Shown here piece by piece: positions 14,930 through 52,824 of a stretch of DNA of 64,000 bases; the first letter of the stretch is position 1; each line of letters begins with the position of its first letter. The DNA is taken from the NCBI GenBank assembly GCA_019637115.1, contig JAHBWH010000014.1, forward strand, positions 1-64,000, in the 5' to 3' direction. The position numbers and the translations under genes are program-made. Origin of the DNA: Myxococcales bacterium (GTDB lineage Bacteria > Myxococcota_A > Polyangia > Polyangiales > Houyiibacteriaceae). The notes beneath the pieces were generated by a model. It saw only the letters and a program-made list of their open reading frames with translations, ran no database searches and was not told the DNA's origin.

Positions 14930-15155
14930 TCTAGCCTCCGAATCCGCTCCACCCACACGCAAGCGCCACACACTGCCGCCAATTCCGGAACATGCAAGGC
15001 GTTCACGAAACGTGCTCGCCGCTCGAGGAGAGGCGTTCGCACGTCCTCGCGGTTCGAGGAGGGGCGCTCGGCGCGCCCCTCGCGACATGCGAGCGCCTCT
15101 TGCGAGCCACCGCTCGCTGCGCGCCGTCCAACCGGGCGGCCTGCCAGAACGGCTT
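14930..15155 (-). other. Spacer with a terminator-like hairpin and a diverged copy of the 3'-end structured repeat
   Basis: A 23-base hairpin (GAGGGGCG / CGCCCCTC) sits at 15059-15081, about 75 bases beyond the stop codon of the 15156 gene. Bases about 15108-15155 (CGCTCGCTGCGCGCCGTCCA then GGGCGGCCTGCC) match the terminal part of the repeat found at 30973 and 44251, and they lie in the same position relative to a gene stop. I see no open frame worth calling. The promoter of the 12875-14929 gene must lie in this spacer. Confidence 0.55.
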
Positions 15156-15875: not shown

Positions 15876-17648
15876 TCAGGGGATCGGGTTGAAGCGGATG
15901 CGCTGCCCCGCGGTCGGGATGCACATCCCCGTCCCACCCGGGCAAGCGTTGATGCCCTGCATTCCGGTCTGGTTCTCGATCCCGACGTATGCCGTCGACG
16001 ACGCGCCCATCATCGACTGATAGACGAAGTCGATCGTCCGCGTCGCCTCGCTCAAGATGATCTCGAAGGTGAAGCGCTGTTCGTCGCCGCCCAGCCAGTT
16101 GCGCACCTCCCGGAACTCGACCACCCACTGGCGGTTTGGCGCTTCCCCAACCGTCGCTATGCAGATCGGGCCGCGTAGGACGAGGTCACGCGAGAAAACC
16201 GCGACGACGCCATTCGGGGTGGACGTGCTCGGAACGGGCCCGCTCGACGAAAAGGCCGCAGGCCCGGCCAAGCTGATCCACCCGTTCGACGAGACCGCGA
16301 CGGGGCTCCCCGCGGCGAGATCGGTGGCCCAATATCGGAACGGGAAGGGCAAGTTCACGGTCGTCGTCTGATCGTCGGCGCCCGCCAACACACCCATCAT
16401 GCCGGGCGCGGCGCAGGCGTCGATGTAGGGCACCAGCTCCGGGGCCGGATCCTCGCGCTCGTAACGGATCGGCGGCGCGTCGGTGCACTCGGACATCAGG
16501 CAGACGTCACCCGCGTCACACGCCACGTCGCACGCGCCGCAGTGCGCGGCGCTCGTCGACGTGTTGAAGCAGGTCCCGCCGCAGTCGGTCGTGCCCGCGG
16601 GGCACCCGCACTCGCCGCCAGCGCAAACGCCGCCGATGAGCGCCGGACACTCGTTGTCGCACTCACCGCAGTGATCGAGCGAGGTCTGCAGATCGTGGCA
16701 GGAGGTCCCGCACATCGTCAGCCCCTCGGCGCACGTGCACATGCCCCCGCTGCACACTCCTCCAGGACCGCAGCTGTTCCCGCAGCTCCCGCAGTTCTCG
16801 GCGTCGGTCATAGGGTTCGTGCAACCCCCGCAGTCCAAGAAGCCCGTCACGCAATCACAGAGGCCGTCCGTGCACGTCTCGCGCGTTCCACAGCGCCGAC
16901 CGCAAGATCCGCAGTTGAAGGGATCCGTGTCCAGATTGACGCAGCGTCCCGAGCAAGCCTCACGATCGGCGCCGCAGCTCGTGCACGCGCTGTCCACGCA
17001 GACGCCGCCCATGCCGCAGGAGATCCCGCAAGACCCGCAGTTGTTGGCGTCCAGCGTCACGTCCACGCAGGACCGACCGCAGAGCAACGCGCCGGGCGCG
17101 CATTGGCAGAACCCAGCGAGACAGACCGTGCCCTCGGAGCACTTCGTGTTGCACGTTCCGCAGTTCATCGGGTCGGTCTGGAGGTCGGCACAGACGAGCA
17201 CGTCCTCACCGTCCTCGCCCTCGTTCGTGCAGACGACGTTCGGCGCGTCGCAGTCGAGCACGCACTCCCCGTCGACGCAGAGCTCCGTACCGGCGCAGCG
17301 ATTGCCGCAGGTGCCGCAATTCGCAGTGTCGGTGCGAGGATCGAGGCACACGCCCCCGCACCCGAGGAGGGGCGCGAAGCAGTCGCAGCGCCCGATCGCG
17401 CACGAGCTGCCCTCGGGACAAACGTTCCCGCAGCTGCCGCAGTTGTTGGAGTCCTCCGCCACCCGCACACATCCGTCGGTGCAGGGGACCTCGCCTGCCT
17501 CGCACGTCGTGGCGGCGTCGAGGGTCGACTCGGCGTCGACGTCTTCGACCATCGAGTCCCCGACACCGCCGTCGAGCGAGCCGCGCCGTTCGGTCTTGCA
17601 CCCGAAGAGCGACGCCGCGACGAGGGCAGCAAGGATCAGTGTCCGCAT
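15876..17648 (-). CDS. Cys-rich (Stig1-like repeat) lipoprotein with C-terminal beta-sandwich
   Basis: I take the ATG at 17648 (MRTLILAALVAASLFGCK), which gives a compact lipoprotein signal. An in-frame ATG at 17675 would add nine residues. About residues 45-400 are some eight units of the form NCGSCGxxC...GxCxC, as in myxobacterial Cys-rich and Stig1-like proteins, where spacing suggests disulfide-stabilised loops. The last 190 residues form a different domain (LPFPFRYWATDLAAGSP, VSSNGWISLAG, DFVYQSMMG, YVGIENQTG) resembling the beta-sandwich of NIDO-type extracellular proteins. An exposed, adhesive or protective surface role is plausible. Its neighbours on both sides are lipoproteins, with 12-bp and 39-bp gaps, consistent with one operon. 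Confidence 0.85.
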   Translation of the reverse strand: MRTLILAALVAASLFGCKTERRGSLDGGVGDSMVEDVDAESTLDAATTCEAGEVPCTDGCVRVAEDSNNCGSCGNVCPEGSSCAIGRCDCFAPLLGCGGVCLDPRTDTANCGTCGNRCAGTELCVDGECVLDCDAPNVVCTNEGEDGEDVLVCADLQTDPMNCGTCNTKCSEGTVCLAGFCQCAPGALLCGRSCVDVTLDANNCGSCGISCGMGGVCVDSACTSCGADREACSGRCVNLDTDPFNCGSCGRRCGTRETCTDGLCDCVTGFLDCGGCTNPMTDAENCGSCGNSCGPGGVCSGGMCTCAEGLTMCGTSCHDLQTSLDHCGECDNECPALIGGVCAGGECGCPAGTTDCGGTCFNTSTSAAHCGACDVACDAGDVCLMSECTDAPPIRYEREDPAPELVPYIDACAAPGMMGVLAGADDQTTTVNLPFPFRYWATDLAAGSPVAVSSNGWISLAGPAAFSSSGPVPSTSTPNGVVAVFSRDLVLRGPICIATVGEAPNRQWVVEFREVRNWLGGDEQRFTFEIILSEATRTIDFVYQSMMGASSTAYVGIENQTGMQGINACPGGTGMCIPTAGQRIRFNPIP

Positions 17649-29452: not shown

Positions 29453-30763
29453 CTACCTGGCGGTCGCGCGCTGGCGGACGGGCCCTCGCTGCGGCGCCTG
29501 GCGCACCTCGCGCAGCGCGGCCTCGACCCTCGCGCGGTCGAGCTCCCCCTCGCCTCGCAGCGCCCGCTCGTAGCGCTGCGCGGCCCCGCTGCGGTCGCCA
29601 CGGAGGCGGAGCGCGTCGCCGTAGTAGGCGTGCGCCGCAGCCAAGTTGGCGTGGACGCGCAAGAGCCGGTCGAGGAACCCGGTCGCGAGCACGTCGCGCC
29701 CCTGCGCGATCGCGAGCCGGGCCGAGTGCAAGAGCCCCGAAGGATCGCTCGGGTCGAGGTTGGCGGCCGCGCCATAACGCTCGAAGGCCTCCTCCGTGCG
29801 GCCGCGCTGCTCCTCGAGCTGACCGAGCGCGATCTGGGCCGCGGCCATGTTCGGGACGAGCTCGAGCGCCCGCATCAACGCGACCTGGGCCCGGTCGAGC
29901 TCCCCCTCGGCGGCGAGTAGGCGCCCGAGCGCGAGGTGCGCCTCCGCGTTGCGGCTCTCGCGCGCCAGGGCCGCCTCGAGGTTGCGACGCGCGGCGGCGC
30001 GGTCGCCATCCGCGAGCTGGTGCTCGGCGAGCGCGATCAGCGCCGCCGTCCACTGCGGGCGCGCCTGCACCGCGCGCTCGAGCAGCGCCTGCCCCTCCGC
30101 GCCGGGGGTCCGCCGCCCGAGCTCGTACCAGACCTCGGGAACGCCCGCATCCTTGCGCTGCGCCTCGCGCAGCTGGGCGAGCGCGTCCGCGTCGCGCCGC
30201 GCGTTGGCATGGAGCAGCGCGAGCCCCAGGTGGGGCTCGAAGCGCGTGGCGTCGAGCCCCACGGCGCGGCGGTACGCTTCCTCTGCCGGGCCCACCTCGA
30301 AGCGGAGCCGGTTGGCGTCGCCGAGGGCGAGCCAATACTCGAAGAGCCCGTCGCCTCCGCGCGCCGCGGCGGCCTCCAGCTCCTCGAAAGCGCGCCCAGC
30401 GCGGTTCCAGACGAGGAACGCCCGCGCGTTGCAGATGTGCGTGAGCGGCGCCGTGCGCTCGACCCGCTCGAGCGCGCGACAGGCGGCGCGGGCCTTGCGG
30501 TAATCGCCCTCGGCGAAGGTGACGCTCGCCACCTCGAAGAGCGCCTCGATCCCGCCGCCGCGCAGGCGCGCTGCCGCCTGCAGCGCGCGCTCGGCGTCGC
30601 GAAACCGTCCCGCCCGCAGCAACGCGCGTCCATGCGCGCGCTGCGCGTCGGCGTCGCGCGGGCTCTGACGCGCCGCCTGCGCCAGCGCGGGGAGATCGGT
30701 CGGAGATTGCGCGAGCGCCGGGGCGCCGAGCGAGAGCGTGAGGACGAGGGAGAAGGCGCGCAT
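29453..30763 (-). CDS. Periplasmic TPR-repeat protein
   Basis: The 436-residue product begins with a Sec signal (MRAFSLVLTLSLGAPALAQ) without a lipobox Cys. At least ten tetratricopeptide repeats follow from about residue 25 to 420, for example DADAQRAHGRALLRAGRFRDAE, AEAHLALGRLLAAEGELDRA and AAAHAYYGDALRLRGDRSGAA. TPR arrays bind partner proteins, and the export signal places this one in the periplasm. No enzymatic motif is visible. Placement just upstream of bamD on the same strand suggests a role in envelope biogenesis, but the link is only positional. I considered a secreted lytic enzyme scaffold, and nothing in the sequence supports it. Confidence 0.88.
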   Translation of the reverse strand: MRAFSLVLTLSLGAPALAQSPTDLPALAQAARQSPRDADAQRAHGRALLRAGRFRDAERALQAAARLRGGGIEALFEVASVTFAEGDYRKARAACRALERVERTAPLTHICNARAFLVWNRAGRAFEELEAAAARGGDGLFEYWLALGDANRLRFEVGPAEEAYRRAVGLDATRFEPHLGLALLHANARRDADALAQLREAQRKDAGVPEVWYELGRRTPGAEGQALLERAVQARPQWTAALIALAEHQLADGDRAAARRNLEAALARESRNAEAHLALGRLLAAEGELDRAQVALMRALELVPNMAAAQIALGQLEEQRGRTEEAFERYGAAANLDPSDPSGLLHSARLAIAQGRDVLATGFLDRLLRVHANLAAAHAYYGDALRLRGDRSGAAQRYERALRGEGELDRARVEAALREVRQAPQRGPVRQRATAR

Positions 30764-30808
30764 GGTTCGTCTCGGAGGAGGAGCTCCGGCCACTCGGCCG
30801 AGCTGCCT

Positions 30809-30852
30809 GAGCCGCCCGCGTGGGCGGCTCGGGGCTTCGCGGGGCGAGCCCC
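30809..30852. other. Two strong hairpins upstream of the periplasmic TPR gene
   Basis: GAGCCGCCC/GGGCGGCTC (4-base loop GCGT, 30809-30830) is followed directly by GGGGCT/AGCCCC (30831-30852). They lie 46-90 bases upstream of the TPR start at 30763. They could end transcription coming from the ThDP gene (31202) or structure the leader. The remaining 30853-30972 shows no feature I would support. Confidence 0.5.
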
Positions 30853-30972
30853 ACGGAGAACGGATGGGGAACAGACGGGAGATAGCCTAACAACTTCAAC
30901 CGTGGACGGACGGGCTCCCCCGATATGAGGTCCACGAGGCGTCAGACGCTCGTCCATGAGGGGCTGTCGCCA

Positions 30973-31198
30973 GGTCGCCAGCCCCTCCCCCACGGGGCAT
31001 GGTTCGAAGCGGAATCGTGCGAGGCGAAGCGGACGTAGTCCGCGAAGCCGCACGATTCCGCGAGACAGTCGCAACCGCGCGACAGCGCGGTGCGACGAAG
31101 CCCCGCGGGGCCCCCCTCCCACGAGCCTTCGCTCGCTGCGCTCGCTGCGCTCGCTACGCGCCGTCCAGTAGGGCGGCTTGCGAGATCGGCTGAGCTTC
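30973..31198 (-). repeat. Dispersed 3'-end structured repeat, copy A
   Basis: This 226-bp element is nearly identical to the inverse-oriented copy at 44251-44465. It begins 3 bases after the ThDP enzyme stop codon (31202). In plus-strand order it contains GCCCC/GGGGC at 30981-30998; GGAATCGTGCG/CGCACGATTCC at 31011-31059 enclosing GCGGAC-GTA-GTCCGC; GTCGCA-CCGCGC/GCGCGG-TGCGAC at 31068-31096; and the palindrome GCCCCGCGGGGC near 31100. The stems are kept in both copies, which suggests a folded RNA or a structured mobile element. No open frame is conserved. Confidence 0.85.
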
Positions 31199-31201
31199 TT
31201 T

Positions 31202-32830
31202 TCATACGCTGATCGCGTCCTTGCGGAAGTCGCTCTGCCCGATCTTCACGTTCACGAGCGCCGGCTCGGGGCAGTCGAAGGCGGCCGCGAGGGCCTTGGG
31301 GAGGTCCTCGTTCCGCTCGACCCAGAAGCCCTTGCCGCCGCAAGCCTCGACCACCTTCTCGTAACGCGTGTAGTCGAGCTTCGTCGCGACGCATCGATCG
31401 GCGCCGAAGATCTGCTTCTGGCCTCGGAGGATCTGCGTCCACCCGGCGTCGTTACCGATGACGCCGACGACCTTGATGCCCTGGCGCGCCATCGCCTCGA
31501 ATTCGAGGCCGTGCAGGCCGAACGATCCGTCGCCATACACCAGGATGACGCGCGACTTCGGCCGAGCGAGCTTGGCCGCCATCGCGTAGCCGGGGCCGAC
31601 GCCGAGCGTGCCGAGCGGGCCGGGGTCCATCCACACGCCCGGCCACTGGATGGGCAGCGTGTAGGCGGCCGTCGCGACGAAGTCCCCGCCGTCGCCGACG
31701 ACGACGCTGTCCTCCTCGACGAACTTCGCGAGCTCCTGGCAGACGCGGAGCGGGTTCGGGGGGTCGCTCGTGTCGGCGGCCTCCGCGTCCATCGCCGCGA
31801 TCGCTTGGCGGTCCTCCTCCGCGATCTTGGCGAGCCAGTCGCCGCCCTTGCGCTCGGGGAGCGCGCGCTCGAGACCCGCGAGGAAGAGCCCCGTGTCGCC
31901 GGGCACCGCGAGGTGCACGGGCCGGTTGTGCATCAGCACGGTCGAGTCGAGGTCGACCTGGATGACCTTCGCCGAGTCGGGGATCGCGCGGCCGTATTTG
32001 AGGCGGAAGTCGAAGGGGGTGCCGAACACGAGCACCAGGTCCGCCTGCTTGAGCGCCGACCCGCGGACGCGCTTGAACGCGCAGGGGTGCGTCGGCGGCA
32101 ACGCGCCGCGCGCCATGCCGTTGACGAAGACGGGGACCTCGAAGCGATCGACGAGGCGTCGGAGCGCCTCGCGGTCGGGCGACCAGCGGAGCTGCGTGCC
32201 GACGACCAGCACCGGGCGCTCGGCGGCCTCGAGCAGCTTCGCGGCCTCCTCGATCGCGCGGGTCTCGGGCTGCGCGACGCACGTCGCCCGATACGCCGAG
32301 GGGGGCGGCGCGTCGGTCTCCTTGGCGCCCATCATCAAGATGTCGAGCGGCATCTCGAGGAAGACGGGGCCGGGCACGCCAGTGGTCGCGTGGCGGAAGG
32401 CCATCTGCATCATCTCGCCGAGGCGCCGCGTCTCTGGGACCGTCGCCGACCATTTGGTGATCGGCCGCATCAGCTCGACGTGGTCCATGTCCTGGAGCGA
32501 GCCCTGGTGCTTGTTCACCGACGGCCCCGCGCCCCCGATGATCAGCATCGGCACGCCCGCGCGCTGCGCGTTGGCGGCGGCGGTGACCACGTCGGTCACC
32601 CCCGGCCCCGCCGTCACCAAGGCGACCCCAGGCTGCCCCGTGACCCGCGCCCACCCGTCCGCCGCGTGCCCGGCGGTCTGCTCGTGCCGAACGTCCACGA
32701 CGCGGATGCCCTCGTCGAGGCAGCCGTCGTAGATGTTCGCGATGTGCCCGCCGCACAGGGTGAAGACGTGGTCGATCCCCTCGGCCTTGATCGCCTTCGC
32801 GACCAGCCTGCCTCCGTGCACCATGCCCAT
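31202..32830 (-). CDS. Thiamine diphosphate-dependent enzyme (acetolactate synthase / 2-hydroxyacyl-CoA lyase superfamily)
   Basis: The 542-residue product has the three-domain ThDP fold. The N-terminal pyrimidine-binding domain holds the catalytic Glu50 in VRHEQTAGHAADG and VTAGPGVTDVV. The middle domain has a Rossmann-like VLVVGTQLRWS region. The C-terminal domain has the cofactor signature GDGSFGLHGLEFEAM...GND in place of the usual GDG...NN. MDPGPLGTLGVGPGYAMAA resembles 2-hydroxyacyl-CoA lyases and oxalyl-CoA decarboxylases more than IlvB, and no small regulatory subunit gene (ilvN) is adjacent. I therefore favour a lyase or decarboxylase of a 2-hydroxy or 2-oxo acid derivative. The substrate is unknown. 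The gene stands alone, with the structured repeat at its 3' end. Confidence 0.88.
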   Translation of the reverse strand: MGMVHGGRLVAKAIKAEGIDHVFTLCGGHIANIYDGCLDEGIRVVDVRHEQTAGHAADGWARVTGQPGVALVTAGPGVTDVVTAAANAQRAGVPMLIIGGAGPSVNKHQGSLQDMDHVELMRPITKWSATVPETRRLGEMMQMAFRHATTGVPGPVFLEMPLDILMMGAKETDAPPPSAYRATCVAQPETRAIEEAAKLLEAAERPVLVVGTQLRWSPDREALRRLVDRFEVPVFVNGMARGALPPTHPCAFKRVRGSALKQADLVLVFGTPFDFRLKYGRAIPDSAKVIQVDLDSTVLMHNRPVHLAVPGDTGLFLAGLERALPERKGGDWLAKIAEEDRQAIAAMDAEAADTSDPPNPLRVCQELAKFVEEDSVVVGDGGDFVATAAYTLPIQWPGVWMDPGPLGTLGVGPGYAMAAKLARPKSRVILVYGDGSFGLHGLEFEAMARQGIKVVGVIGNDAGWTQILRGQKQIFGADRCVATKLDYTRYEKVVEACGGKGFWVERNEDLPKALAAAFDCPEPALVNVKIGQSDFRKDAISV

Positions 32831-43342: not shown

Positions 43343-44203
43343 ATGCAAGACCTCGCGGGTAGCCGCGTCCTCGTCACGGGTGCCAACACGGGGATCGGGC
43401 GGGTGACGGCGCGAGAGCTCGCCGCGCGCGGTGCGCACGTGCTCCTCGCCACCCGCTCGCTCGAGCGCACGCGCGAAGCGCTCGACGAGATCGCTGCGCT
43501 CGGGCGCGGCTCGGCCGAGCACCTGCCCCTCGATCTGGGCGACCTCGCGTCGGTGCAGCGCGCGGTGCGTGCCCTGCGCGACCGGGACGAGCCGCTGCAC
43601 GTCCTCCTGAACAACGCCGGCCTCGTCGGGAGCCACGGGGTCACGGCGCAGGGCTTCGAGCTCGCGTTCGGGACGAACCACCTCGGGCATTTCTTGCTGA
43701 CGCGCGGCTTGCTCGACCTGCTCGCGCGGGGCGCCGCCGAGCGAGACGCTCCCTCGCGCGTCGTCAACGTGGCGAGCAAGGCGCACGTGAACGCCAAGCG
43801 CGTCGACTGGGAGGCGCTGCGACGGCCGACCGCCACGCGCACGGGCTGGCGCGAGTACGCGGTCAGCAAGCTCTGCAACATCTGGCACGTCTCCGAGCTC
43901 GCGCGTCGCGAGACGCCTCGACGGGTCCACGCCTACGCGCTGCACCCCGGGGTCATCGCGTCGGATCTATGGCGCCGCGTGCCGTGGCCGATCCGCGCGA
44001 TCGCGACCCGCGGCATGATCTCGAACGAGGAAGGCGCGCGCACCTCGATCTGGTGCGCGGCCGCGCCGGAGCTCTCCGGCGAGACGGGCCGCTACTACGA
44101 CGATCGCCGAGAGCGCACGCCGACGGCGCTCGCACGAGACGCGACGCTCGCGCGCGAGCTCTGGGAGCGCAGCGAAGCTTGGGTGGCGCCCTTCGCGGAC
44201 TGA
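43343..44203 (+). CDS. SDR-family NAD(P)-dependent oxidoreductase (retinol dehydrogenase-like)
   Basis: The 286-residue product has the classical SDR motifs: nucleotide-binding TGANTGIG (residues 12-19), NNAG, a catalytic Ser in RVVNVASKAH and the YxxxK motif YAVSK. FELAFGTNHLGHFLLT and LHPGVIASDLWR are typical of the retinol dehydrogenase/WW-domain oxidoreductase branch. The substrate is unknown and probably a small alcohol or ketone. There is no signal peptide. The gene follows a repeat-rich spacer and is followed by a structured repeat copy 48 bases after its stop. Confidence 0.92.
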   Translation: MQDLAGSRVLVTGANTGIGRVTARELAARGAHVLLATRSLERTREALDEIAALGRGSAEHLPLDLGDLASVQRAVRALRDRDEPLHVLLNNAGLVGSHGVTAQGFELAFGTNHLGHFLLTRGLLDLLARGAAERDAPSRVVNVASKAHVNAKRVDWEALRRPTATRTGWREYAVSKLCNIWHVSELARRETPRRVHAYALHPGVIASDLWRRVPWPIRAIATRGMISNEEGARTSIWCAAAPELSGETGRYYDDRRERTPTALARDATLARELWERSEAWVAPFAD

Positions 44204-44250
44204 GTACAGTTCCCCGAAAGTTCGGCAGATCCATTCCGTCCAGCGGCCTA

Positions 44251-44465
44251 GAAGTTCAGTCGATTTCGCAAGCCGCCCTACCGGACGGCGCGCAGCGAGC
44301 GGAGCGAGCGTAGGCTCGTGGGAGGGGGCCCCGCGGGGCTTCGTCGCACCGCGCTGTCGCGCGGTTGCGACTGTCTCGCGGAATCGTGCAGCTTCGCGGA
44401 GTACGTCCGCTTCGCCTCGCACGATTCCGTTCGAACCATGCCCCGTGGGGGAGGGGCTGGCGACC
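44251..44465 (+). repeat. Dispersed 3'-end structured repeat, copy B
   Basis: The inverse complement of this 215-bp block matches copy A (30973-31198) over nearly its whole length with few changes. It keeps the GGAATCGTGC/GCACGATTCC stem, the GCGGA...TCCGC inner loop, the GTCGCA-CCGCGC stem and the GCCCCGCGGGGC palindrome. It begins 48 bases after the SDR stop codon (44203), so its orientation relative to the upstream gene is the same as in copy A. Confidence 0.85.
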
Positions 44466-44866
44466 CTCATAGGAAGCTGACACCGAGCCATCGACCCGAC
44501 CGATGATGGCGAGTTGCCGCGCGGGCCCGCCGGTCTGCTTGATCGCCTTCCGGCGTTCCGCCCGCTCGCCTTCCGGGTCCGCTCCGCTCACCTCGCTCGG
44601 ACGGTCTGCGGACCGGTACCACGGAGGTGCGTGGCTCGCGGAGGTCCGTGGGTTGCACAACCGTGTGCCGACGCGGGTGTTCGACGTGCAGGACCTTGCA
44701 CAACGGGGCTCGCATTCGCGAGCGAAGTCGTTCGGCACGGATGCTGCTCCAACTCCGACGCGAGAAGACTCGGTGCTCGGCGACGGCTCGCCCCCTCGTG
44801 GGGTGCATCCGCGTTCGGAACCCATCCGTCTCGTCTCGTTCGGACTCGGTCGTGTCGGAGGCTCAT
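44466..44866. other. Spacer without a supported gene, upstream of the PA14 protein
   Basis: About 400 bases lie between repeat copy B and the ATG at 44867. Frames exist on both strands, but they are rich in Arg, Ser and Pro and resemble nothing known. The end of the spacer carries the ribosome site GGAGG at 44857-44861 for the PA14 gene. A short minus-strand stretch (RRKAIKQTGGPARQLAII) looks more protein-like than its surroundings and might be a remnant, but I cannot support a gene. Confidence 0.4.
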
Positions 44867-47800
44867 ATGAAGGTTGTCATCCCCATCACTATCGCCCTTT
44901 CGGTCAGCTGCGGCTGCGTGGCGTCGCTGGCCCCGGACGACCCCAACGCGGTCGACTTCGCCGACGACTCGCTCGAGCACGCCCGTGGACTCCTCGGGAC
45001 CTACTTCCGAACCAACGACCTCTCGGGCGACGAGCTCGTCCGAGTGGACTCGACGATCGACTTCGATTGGGGCCGGTCCTCTCCCGACCCGAGCATCCCG
45101 GTGGACGGCTTCTCGGTGCGCTGGCAGGGCTTCTTCGTCGCCGAAGAGACGGGCCCGCATCGGTTTGCCGTGCGGTCGGATGACGGCATGCGGCTGTGGG
45201 TGGGAGATGTGGATGGTGAGCCGCTGGTCGAGAACTGGCGGGACCAAGCGCCAGTGACCGTTCGGGAGAGCATCGAGTTGGTGGCGGGTGAGGTCTATCC
45301 GATCAAGCTCGAGTACTACGAGAATCGCGGCGGAGCGCTGGTGGAGCTGCGCTGCGCTCCGCCCAGCCTCCGCGCACGCTCCGAGGAGCCAATCGTTCCG
45401 GCCTCGCAGCTCCGGGTCCGGTACCCGACGGCCCAGCCGGGACTCGTCGGGAGCTACTATCCCACCATCGATCTCTCAGGGGAGCCACTCGTGCGCGTGG
45501 ACCCGACGATCGACTTCGACTGGGGTCGATCCTCGCCAGGCTCGAGCATCCCGGTGGATGGCTTCTCGGTGCGCTGGCAGGGTTTCTTCGTCGCCGAAGA
45601 GACGGGGCTCCACCGGTTCGCCGTGCGGTCGGACGATGGCATGCGGCTCTGGGTGGGCGATGTAGACGGGGCGCCACTACTCGCGAACTGGCGCAACCAG
45701 TCGGCGGTGACCGTCCGGGAGAGCATCGAGCTGGTGGCGGGCGAGGCCTATCCGATCAAGCTCGAATACTTCGAGAATCGCGGCACGGCGTTGGTGGAGC
45801 TGCGTTGCGCTCGACCGAGCCTCGGCGCAGCCGCGGAGCCGATCATCCCGACCTCGCAGCTGCGCACGACGCGCCCCACGGCGTCGCCGGTGGCGATCGA
45901 GAACGTCGCGCTCGGCAAACGCGCGAGCCAAGTGTCGGTCGACCACGGAGGAACCCCCGACCGCGCGGTGGATGACAACACGAGTGGGCGATACGCCGAC
46001 CGATCCGTGACGCATACGACGTACACGACCCGCCCGTGGTGGATGGTCGACCTCGATGGTAGCCATTGGGTCGAGCGCGTGACGTTGTTCAACCGAACGG
46101 ACTGCTGTGTCGACCGCCTCTCCGACTTCGACGTCGAGTTGCTGAACGCGGCCGACGAGGTGATCGCTGCGACACATCATCCAGGCACGGCCTTCGGGTC
46201 CACGGAATTCGCCTTCGGGGTCGATGACGTCCATGCCGTCCGCGTGCGACTGCGGGGCACGAACTACCTCTCGCTCGCCGAGGTACAGGTTTGGGGTGCG
46301 CCCAGCCGGAGTGTTCCGGAACCTGCCCCTCCCGCGGGTCCGCGGATCACGCTTCCGATCGAGGTGCTTGGTCCCGCCGGCACTCGCGAGACCGAACAAT
46401 TCCACATCGCTGACCCGAGCGGGATCACGCACCTATACCTTCGCTGCAACGGCTGCGGCTACCACGACACGAGGCTCGACGGGAACGCCTCCATGGTCAA
46501 AGCGACCGTGCGCATCAACGGTGGCCCCGCGATCTCGATCAAGCACTACACGGGTGGCGGCAGCCTCGTCGGTAACCGGAACATCCAAGTGATCGGCGGC
46601 GAGGCCGACTACGGCGGCATCGGCGGCGCGTTCCGAACCACGCGTCTCATGGTTCCGGTGACGGGGCTCGTCGCGGGCCTCAACACCATCACCTTCGAGC
46701 ATACGACGCCCGCACCGCCGAGCATCGGATACCGAATCATCGAGATGGATTTTCTTCGGCGAGGCTCACTCTCCGACAGAGTGCTCACGGACCGCGACGT
46801 CATTCACGACGATCCGGCGTCGTGGCGTCCCCCATCGAGCCGCGCAGCGGACATCGCTGCGGGCGCTGCGTTGTGGCATCAACGCGATCGGCTCTACGAC
46901 GTCGGACTCGACATGACCGACGGCGAGGGCAATGGGCGAGGCCCCATCAACGGACGAATGCGCGCGTCATGCGCGGACTGCCACGCTTCTGACGGACGGG
47001 ATCTGAAGTACTTCAACTACTCGAACCGCTCCATCATCGAAAGATCCCGATTTCACGAGCTAACCCGAGCGGAAGGCGAGAACATCGCATCGTATATTCG
47101 CAGCCTGGACATTCCGTTCGTCGCACAGGCTCGTCCGTGGAATCCGGCATACCAACCAGGCCCGGGAATGGACAGCCGCCCCGTTTACGAATGGGCCGCC
47201 GGCGCGGGCGTCGACGCCATCCTCGACCGCGACCGAGACCTGGCCCCCTACCTGTTGCCGCGCGGCAACTCCATGAACGAGGTGCGCGCCGTCGTAGATC
47301 GCTACGCAACGCTGAACCTCAGAGAACTTCCAATCAACATTCCGATGCCGGAGTGGAAAGAGTGGCTGCCCAGAATTCACCCCGATGACGCTTTCAACAC
47401 ATCGGCGACACCCATTCGATCGGATCACCGAGGCATCAATGTGAACATGCCATACTATACGAAGATACACAATGACGCCGTATCGAACCCGACGCCAGCC
47501 ACCCTAGGCGGGTTCTCGCGCGGCATCAAAGAATGGCTGCGTCGTGGCATGACCTGCTCGACATCAGGGCTCAATTCAGGAGAACCCATTCGGGGCCTAA
47601 ACGGCGGCGTCCTTAGCTCGCTCAGGCTGCCATCGCCGTCCGTGACGAACAGCAACTGTACCAGCATAAATCGCGCTTCATTGGCCAACCTCGAGCACGC
47701 CAAGCGCGGACTCCTATCGTGGGCTTCCGTCAAGATGTGGGAAGTAATTCACACCAACGGACTCGAAGAAGAATCAAGGAACGTAGGAAGACGAATCTGC

Positions 47801-48532
47801 ATCGGCAGCACCTGTGTCGACGGCAGCGAGCCTCGCGGTTGGGTAGCCGACGGCAGAAACGTCTTCGATCGCACGGCGCACTTTCTCGGCGTCATGCCGG
47901 GCCGTGCGTACGTCAGCCAGACAGAGATGGAGGGCGTCTTCGAGAGCAACTCGTGGTACCATCTAAACATGATTCTGAACCCAGGTTACCGGGTGAGCAT
48001 GCCTTCGCATTTTGCCTACACGTACAGCCACGTCGAATGGCTTCAGCGCCTCTCTGGAGTCGACCAAGGATACCGGTTCTGGGCAACCATGATCAAGCAG
48101 CGGCAGCTTCAGACCAATGGCCGATACGGTGTCGAGGCAGGTCTCGATCTGCGGACCGCTCAGCCCTACGTGTACTATGGCACCGCAAGGGGCAGAACGA
48201 ACACAGACACGCAATCCAGTGTTGGACAGCCTTTGTGGGGCAGGTTTGCACAGGCCATGATCGAGGACTTCGTTGCCGATGCCAATCGGGCAACACCCGA
48301 AGACTGGGCGAGCGCCACTCAAAACCGAGCGGTTCAGCCGAGAAACAGCACGGACTTCTCGACGTGCGGGAACCCGTGCACGTTCGACCTGGGACCGCTC
48401 CAGGGCAGAAATACCTATCGAGTGATTCCTCTGTTGCGTGAGATCGGGGTGTCCAACTCGGTCGTGAACAGCCTGATCGACTGGGGACAACGAACCTGGC
48501 CGAACGGCCCATGGAGCCGCCTGAGGATGTAG
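44867..48532 (+). CDS. Large lipoprotein with two PA14 domains, a discoidin domain and a haem-binding CxxCH motif
   Basis: The 1221-residue product starts MKVVIPITIALSVSCGC at ATG 44867, with GGAGG six bases before. Two PA14 domains (about residues 38-185 and 190-335) are near duplicates: FDWGRSS, SIPVDGFSVRWQGFFVAEET and HRFAVRSDDGMRLWVGDVDG recur with an offset of 151 codons. A discoidin (F5/8C) domain covers about residues 345-485 (WWMVDLDGSHWVERVTLFNR). After a beta-rich stretch, RASCADCHASDGRDL supplies CxxCH at residues 702-706, the only clear haem site. The final 450 residues are unfamiliar, rich in Asn, Ser and Trp, and richer in A/T than the front half. It probably binds polysaccharide or cell surfaces and carries a c-type haem. 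Confidence 0.88.
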   Translation: MKVVIPITIALSVSCGCVASLAPDDPNAVDFADDSLEHARGLLGTYFRTNDLSGDELVRVDSTIDFDWGRSSPDPSIPVDGFSVRWQGFFVAEETGPHRFAVRSDDGMRLWVGDVDGEPLVENWRDQAPVTVRESIELVAGEVYPIKLEYYENRGGALVELRCAPPSLRARSEEPIVPASQLRVRYPTAQPGLVGSYYPTIDLSGEPLVRVDPTIDFDWGRSSPGSSIPVDGFSVRWQGFFVAEETGLHRFAVRSDDGMRLWVGDVDGAPLLANWRNQSAVTVRESIELVAGEAYPIKLEYFENRGTALVELRCARPSLGAAAEPIIPTSQLRTTRPTASPVAIENVALGKRASQVSVDHGGTPDRAVDDNTSGRYADRSVTHTTYTTRPWWMVDLDGSHWVERVTLFNRTDCCVDRLSDFDVELLNAADEVIAATHHPGTAFGSTEFAFGVDDVHAVRVRLRGTNYLSLAEVQVWGAPSRSVPEPAPPAGPRITLPIEVLGPAGTRETEQFHIADPSGITHLYLRCNGCGYHDTRLDGNASMVKATVRINGGPAISIKHYTGGGSLVGNRNIQVIGGEADYGGIGGAFRTTRLMVPVTGLVAGLNTITFEHTTPAPPSIGYRIIEMDFLRRGSLSDRVLTDRDVIHDDPASWRPPSSRAADIAAGAALWHQRDRLYDVGLDMTDGEGNGRGPINGRMRASCADCHASDGRDLKYFNYSNRSIIERSRFHELTRAEGENIASYIRSLDIPFVAQARPWNPAYQPGPGMDSRPVYEWAAGAGVDAILDRDRDLAPYLLPRGNSMNEVRAVVDRYATLNLRELPINIPMPEWKEWLPRIHPDDAFNTSATPIRSDHRGINVNMPYYTKIHNDAVSNPTPATLGGFSRGIKEWLRRGMTCSTSGLNSGEPIRGLNGGVLSSLRLPSPSVTNSNCTSINRASLANLEHAKRGLLSWASVKMWEVIHTNGLEEESRNVGRRICIGSTCVDGSEPRGWVADGRNVFDRTAHFLGVMPGRAYVSQTEMEGVFESNSWYHLNMILNPGYRVSMPSHFAYTYSHVEWLQRLSGVDQGYRFWATMIKQRQLQTNGRYGVEAGLDLRTAQPYVYYGTARGRTNTDTQSSVGQPLWGRFAQAMIEDFVADANRATPEDWASATQNRAVQPRNSTDFSTCGNPCTFDLGPLQGRNTYRVIPLLREIGVSNSVVNSLIDWGQRTWPNGPWSRLRM

Positions 48533-52751: not shown

Positions 52752-52824
52752 CAGTTCGAAGTGGCGCCGTGCGAGACGGATCGGACGCAGTCCGCGAAGC
52801 GGCGCGACTCCCTGAAACGACGCT
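52752..52824 (-). repeat. Diverged partial copy C of the 3'-end structured repeat
   Basis: TTCGAAGTGGCGCCGTGCGA...CGGAC-GCA-GTCCG...CGAAGCGGCGCGACTCC follows the order of the central hairpin of copy A, with several substitutions. It lies directly next to the stop codon of the GH31 gene (52825) and also close behind the Cys-rich lipoprotein stop (52718). Outer stem pairing is weaker than in copies A and B, so this copy is decayed. Confidence 0.5.

Follow-up and report, generated by a model that had tools for sequence, protein, structure and literature searches.

A block of ~220 bp that recurs at the 3' ends of two genes in a 64,000-nt stretch of DNA from a Myxococcales bacterium (contig JAHBWH010000014.1, positions 1 to 64,000; hereafter the window) is not one repeat but two, and its two copies (A and B) are probably composites of nested, gene-less, hairpin-rich and non-autonomous mobile repeats: i) an outer repeat of ~150 bp that is bounded by TGA (the "core"), and ii) an insert of ~97 nt with two hairpins, which is independent of the core ("HP"). 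The first-pass annotation had taken A and B for a single element, a view that gives way here, as each copy is found to consist of a core and an HP insert nested in it. The surprising part of the finding is that HP represents a tRNA-linked family.

Within the window, block A (30973-31198) matched the inverted block B (44250-44465) at 92% identity (E = 5.1e-88), confirming the inverted recurrence that had been reported, and the inverted-repeat arms shared by A and B measured 106 nt (98% identity), 64 nt (89%) and 36 nt (100%). The start of block A at 30973 needs moving, as core sequence is recognisable already from 30956. On the plus strand, copy A comprises the left part of the core (30956..31001; 100% identity to core 10-55), with the left-terminal hairpin GAGGGGCT...AGCCCCTC and the first arm of the central hairpin; the HP insert (31001..31097; 94.5 bits with R1, the covariance model of the first HP hairpin, HP1), which splits the core between CAT and GAAG and carries the hairpins HP1 (31001-31066) and HP2 (about 31067-31097); and the right part of the core (31097..31204; 87% identity to core 55-152), which ends in TTTTCA (TGAAAA on the minus strand). 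Copy B, on the minus strand, comprises the right part of the core (44250..44342; 96.8% identity to core 55-147), the HP insert (44342..44437, with HP1 at 44373-44437; 96.9% identity to the A insert and 72 bits with R1) and the left part of the core (44437..44486), which has lost the 5' arm of the left-terminal hairpin and ends in ...CATAGGAAGCTGA. The stems named by the first-pass annotation, which counted at least three as preserved, do exist, but their preservation is incomplete: B is without that 5' arm and has one mismatch in the GCGGAC/GTCCGC stem. Copy A folded at -130.7 kcal/mol vs -108.3 +/- 4.9 for dinucleotide shuffles (z = -4.6).

Both copies have the same orientation relative to the upstream gene, as had been noted, with the "right" end of A and of B facing that gene. 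Both also adjoin a stop codon, at distances that we revise: that of A is effectively zero, since the same TGA (31202..31204, minus strand) both closes the core and stops ORF 31202-32830, and that of B is 47 bases, a gap made up of a further module, M3 (44201..44247, plus strand; 81% to the M3 consensus), which starts with the stop TGA of ORF 43343-44203. The window also contains a core right-end fragment (15111..15154, plus strand; 82% identity to core 96-139, E = 3e-7) and a third, diverged HP1 hairpin with no core around it (52753..52818, plus strand; 64 bits with R1, and 81% over 58 nt by blastn), which lies ~35 nt past an apparent stop codon. Separately, a 300-bp direct repeat (83%; 44987-45286 and 45440-45739) inside the long ORF 44627-48532 is probably a duplicated protein domain.

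The first-pass annotation had staked its reading on further copies in the genome, and these were found: ~85 core copies are present in the window's own genome (G000; a draft of 8.88 Mb in 434 contigs, 98% complete). With copy A as query, 76 matches were obtained there, which form a mosaic, many of them confined to query 1-37 and 133-240 with nothing between the two; a right-end pattern gave 88 matches (<=3 mismatches) vs one for the reversed control. When loci were read side by side, cores without an insert ran ...CACGGGGCAT/GAAGCCCCG..., i.e., CAT/GAAG, and A and B were interrupted at this same junction (...CAT/GGTTCGAAGCGG...GTGCGAC/GAAGCC...) by an insert of ~97 nt that is present only in some cores. 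Moreover, the spacing between the two end motifs is quantised: ~94 or 102 nt without the insert (one or two copies of an 8-mer), ~186-212 nt with HP, and up to 293 nt with two HP-type inserts. Neither transposase nor integrase was found between or beside core ends. The suspicion that the copies might be fragments of a known transposon was rejected, with no autonomous copy within 1.5 kb of ~100 right ends and no Y1 transposase; a plasmid or phage origin found no match, and two pattern matches on viral contigs, being without HP1 by the covariance model, were treated as chance.

Other modules accompany the core. M2 (~97 bp, TGAAAAGAAACTCGACTCGCACGCC...GGTCAGGAGCTGA; loci L101, L063, L108, L037 and L086) has the end motifs of the core, occurs in tandem and joins cores directly, while M3 (TGAGTACAGTTCCCCGGAAGTTCGTGACCAGG...) begins at TGA and gave 11 distinct matches in the own-genome loci that were fetched. 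In contrast to other copies, one shortened core (L209, own genome, about 1485-1640) has a direct repeat of 16 bp, AACGGGCGAGCGAGCC, on either side.

HP also occurs outside the core. Several Y2 (IS91-like) transposase genes, of which L091 has the uninterrupted form, carry it at one site, where it shifts their reading frame, and it lies antisense at another site of the same gene family; such sense and antisense copies in one transposase family point to DNA mobility. HP was further found within two four-helix-bundle-like genes, and a second HP subfamily occupies, in antisense, another site in the core. HP1 is also contained in repeats bounded by inverted ends of 20-25 bp, which vary from one genome to another (L298 and L340 in G053; L326 and L327 in G010), and some HP copies lie in minisatellites (G040, G218). 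Several copies come right after GAAC, which we take to be the target tetranucleotide of IS91. In all, Y2 transposase genes have been entered by HP at three different sites and in both orientations (L044, 447-514 and 1013-1079; L055). An intron was rejected as a general explanation of HP, given the antisense copy in another Y2 gene and the completeness of the adjacent tRNA genes.

R1 found matches in 32 of the 184 genomes of the order; at a stricter threshold, matches were obtained in 19 of the 379 genomes sampled from the phylum, four of the 19 lying outside the order and one of these (G218) holding many copies. In an alignment of 59 distinct HP1 matches, 95.6% of the cells were paired and 15 of 21 pairs had double changes, and double-changed cells numbered 159 vs 41 in shuffles and 10-31 with the partners slid; this alignment is biased towards the model to which it was fitted, but a MAFFT alignment of 14 sequences gave the same picture. 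The apex (GGACG...GTCC) and the internal loop are nearly invariant, while the outer stem varies and covaries. Thus the covariation that had been suggested as a check exists and is strong for HP1. The structured RNA then envisaged keeps its support for the inner HP, as strong base-pair covariation, but covariation does not separate RNA from single-stranded or cruciform DNA. Apart from the tRNA and tmRNA genes, covariance-model searches against Rfam 15 gave no match at gathering level, either in the window or at HP (best sub-threshold E = 1.6-1.8), so that a known RNA family was rejected, in keeping with the earlier remark that no described family has this structure.

Outside the window's genus, HP is frequently a neighbour of tRNA and tmRNA genes: of the 71 HP matches examined there (drawn best first from search lists, so that the ratio is no census), 32 are no more than 250 nt from such a gene, while the other 39 have no tRNA gene at that distance. 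By chance, such linkage would be expected, generously, in <2%. The linked copies are nearly all on the 3' side of the gene, 28 of the 32 in the opposite orientation, and often ~80 nt away. Beyond HP there often follows an exact copy of 19-33 bp of the 3' end of the gene, from the T-loop to the end (shuffles reach ~12); these exact repeats were present in L297, L300, L315, L316, L325, L328, L329 and L335, and those at other tRNA-adjacent copies were shorter or imperfect. Furthermore, the unit of tRNA 3' end plus HP is found in tandem at the tmRNA gene of G010 and at tRNA-Leu genes of G018 and G026; congeners are not alike in how many units they have at the tRNA-Leu and tmRNA loci. The HP unit is gene-less and fairly uniform in length (~110-165 bp).

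The linkage to tRNA is not universal, because HP lies elsewhere in the inverted-end repeats (G053, G010) or the minisatellites (G040, G218) mentioned above. In the window's genus, no tRNA-type direct repeats surround any HP copy examined, and one of the 46 own-genome HP loci has a tRNA gene, at >200 nt. As for enzymes, no Phage_integrase gene (PF00589) was beside HP copies in the seven genomes searched, and the Y2 family (PF04986) had no match in nine HP-bearing genomes, drafts included (among them G001, G010, G013, G035 and G218); neither family is therefore supported as the resident mobiliser.

By analogy, HP at tRNA genes has the anatomy of an integrated element, but without a gene, and would work like one. 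We accordingly raise, as a tentative proposal about which we remain somewhat doubtful, that HP forms a class of gene-less miniature integrative elements, which would insert at the T-loop of tRNA and tmRNA genes, duplicate the 3' end, build tandem arrays and then colonise other repeats across Myxococcota, moved in trans by a recombinase that reads the folded apex. Two alternatives bear on the same observations. Firstly, HP might be a structured noncoding RNA that is co-transcribed with the tRNA or tmRNA, the duplicated tRNA 3' end serving processing and no integrated element being involved. The strong covariation, the conserved apex and internal loop and the recurrence of the ~80 nt spacing downstream of tRNA genes in many genomes agree with such an RNA, but it is made unlikely by the antisense position of 28 of the 32 copies relative to the tRNA, by the solitary copies in cores, transposase genes, inverted-end repeats and minisatellites, and by the sense and antisense insertions in the same transposase family, which point to mobility of DNA. 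Secondly, HP might be a remnant, reduced to the attachment or terminal region, of either genomic islands or rolling-circle (Y2, IS91-like) transposons. Islands are usually marked by direct repeats at tRNA 3' ends; also, G000 has Y2 transposase genes that carry HP copies, and several copies follow GAAC, the presumed IS91 target. On the other hand, the Y2 family went undetected in the nine HP-bearing genomes, no Phage_integrase gene stood beside HP in the seven searched, and fairly uniform units in tandem arrays are unlike decayed islands, so that we regard such an origin as improbable.

Turning to the core, the terminal sequences are TGAAAAGAAGCTCAGCCGATTTCGCAAGCC... on the right and ...CCCTCATAGGAAGCTGA on the left; one and the same strand has TGA at either end, in imperfect terminal repeats that are direct and not inverted. 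At the left end, TCA on the other strand (= TGA) was counted in 48 cases; where a single copy has deviating end trinucleotides, these do not match each other. Among the 45 distinct right ends with a sense coding frame upstream (both congeners), the stop of the gene falls within the terminus in 42, and at the terminal TGA itself in 31 to 33, depending on one base of slack; one of the stops is TAA and the others are TGA. The remaining right ends are antisense to a gene (19) or have no clear coding frame (34). In genes without the element, the stop accounts for 53.5% of all TGA in the 100 nt starting at the stop, and against this baseline 33 of 45 (73%) is a moderate excess (p about 0.005). Because the baseline is already this high, we tone down a preference for stop codons as a special mechanism. 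The simplest reading is that TGA is either the terminus or the target of the core, stop codons being those TGA sites where it does no harm.

The congener G001, of which about 5% was sampled, lacks the element at three orthologous sites, and therefore core presence differs between species; the intergenic DNA of G001 is too diverged for a clean empty site, so that these sites prove neither a TGA target-site duplication nor an exact core boundary. G001 has core copies of its own, in which the left hairpin GAGGGGCT/AGCCCCTC is changed to GAGGGTCT/AGACCCTC; at one locus (L253, about 16480-16630), two inverted core right ends form a short palindrome that is REPIN-like. Diverged cores were also found in G059, G071, G005, G035, G074 and G007, which represent more than one family of the order, and in these the left and central hairpins are kept while the stems differ. 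That hairpins are retained while their stem sequences change argues that the folded or palindromic form itself is recognised or functional. The terminal hairpin was further matched exactly in two MAGs, one of Sandaracinaceae and one of groundwater Deltaproteobacteria.

These data also bear on whether the block is instead a functional RNA device of the 3' end (terminator, mRNA-stabilising hairpins or RNase target) that is kept by selection and for which mobility is secondary: with a gene stop at 42 of the 45 sense-oriented right ends, hairpins kept across the order with changed stems and a fold far stronger than that of shuffles, the idea has some appeal, but the absence of the element from three orthologous 3' ends in the congener, the 19 antisense right ends and 34 without a clear coding frame, the HP copies inserted into transposase coding sequence and the lack of an intrinsic terminator pattern make it very doubtful. 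In particular, no site with a GC stem followed by a T-tract was detected in 30700-31500, so that an intrinsic terminator is rejected and the combined terminator suggested at first finds no support.

Most likely, then, both layers are non-autonomous, recognised through their hairpins and moved in trans. We propose that the core spreads into TGA sites next to genes, where its terminal TGA would replace or keep the stop of the gene; an insertion would thereby be harmless, which may be why the core sits so precisely at 3' ends. Placement at stop codons would thus reflect the TGA termini together with the purging of harmful insertions. HP, which would be the older of the two, may have entered a core once, at CAT/GAAG, and then multiplied along with it. 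In relatives, HP often lies immediately 3' of a tRNA or tmRNA gene, has the 3' end of that gene repeated on its far side, as integrated elements do, and can form tandem arrays. Core and HP alike would be mobilised in trans by an enzyme, for which the hairpins would be the recognition structures.

For the gene-end repeats of a poorly studied order, the work defines a family whose boundaries and copies are given and for which a usable covariance model is provided. A repeat terminus that doubles as the stop codon of the host gene is a simple way to live at gene ends harmlessly. Should the proposed integrative class hold for HP, integration at tRNA genes would need no gene-bearing island: 110-165 bp of folded DNA would suffice and would then seed other repeats, and which enzyme moves HP would become a testable question.

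No description of the core or HP was found in the open-access literature, which is weak evidence for novelty as most subscription papers are outside that scope; several known systems nevertheless offer comparisons. The REP/MITE-like character first suggested fits the behaviour of the core, but neither the enzyme nor the termini: no Y1/RAYT transposase was found in the genome (no match to the IS200/IS605-type Y1 family, PF01797, in the 98% complete draft of G000), and the terminal repeats are direct. Like REP and BIME of the GTAG and CGTC superfamilies, the core is a many-copy, palindromic, extragenic repeat that lies mostly downstream of genes (PMC3733652); mosaics and inverted dimers are shared as well, as in the two inverted right ends of G001, and REP termini can likewise supply a stop codon, TAG in the case of GTAG REPs (PMC3733652). 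REPs mobilised by RAYT, however, consist of a hairpin of 20-40 bp with an unpaired tag, GTAG or CGTC, at its foot (PMC3733652), whereas the core is ~150 bp long and in its right-end hairpin, GCCGTCC-GGTA-GGGCGGC, GTAG runs across loop and stem and is not at the foot.

With BOX, RUP and SPRITE of pneumococcus (PMC3049150) there is in common a modular composite structure, with an optional internal module, repeats inside repeats and stem-loops, and SPRITE is enriched at gene 3' ends (PMC3049150). The repeats described here differ in their direct, TGA-bounded termini, in their GC-rich DNA, and in having as internal module an independent element that is phylum-wide. We know of no sequence relation between the core or HP and BOX, RUP or SPRITE. 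In the intergenic mosaic elements of Neisseria, dRS3 is interleaved with other repeats (PMC3733652), much as core, M2 and M3 join here at GAAGCTGA-like borders; dRS3 belongs to the CGTC REP superfamily (PMC3733652), and no such tag is seen at the borders here.

MITEs are defined by terminal inverted repeats, but the core ends, TCAGCTTCC...AGCTTCTTTTCA, are direct. Integron attC sites have GTTRRRY and RYYYAAC boxes at the ends of the fold, but the HP copies inspected by eye begin with GGTTCGAA or GGTTGTGA. Rickettsia palindromic elements (named in PMC3733652) are mobile palindromes found within coding genes, where HP too occurs; HP differs in shifting the frame of the Y2 transposase copies. Compared with the elements that tyrosine recombinases integrate at tRNA and tmRNA genes, HP is only ~110-165 bp long and gene-less, with no integrase gene of its own or adjacent to it (PF00589 matches did not lie beside the listed HP copies of seven genomes), and it has a conserved, covarying hairpin; what it shares with these elements is the position 3' of the gene, the direct repeats that flank it and correspond to the gene between T-loop and 3' end, and the capacity to form tandem arrays.
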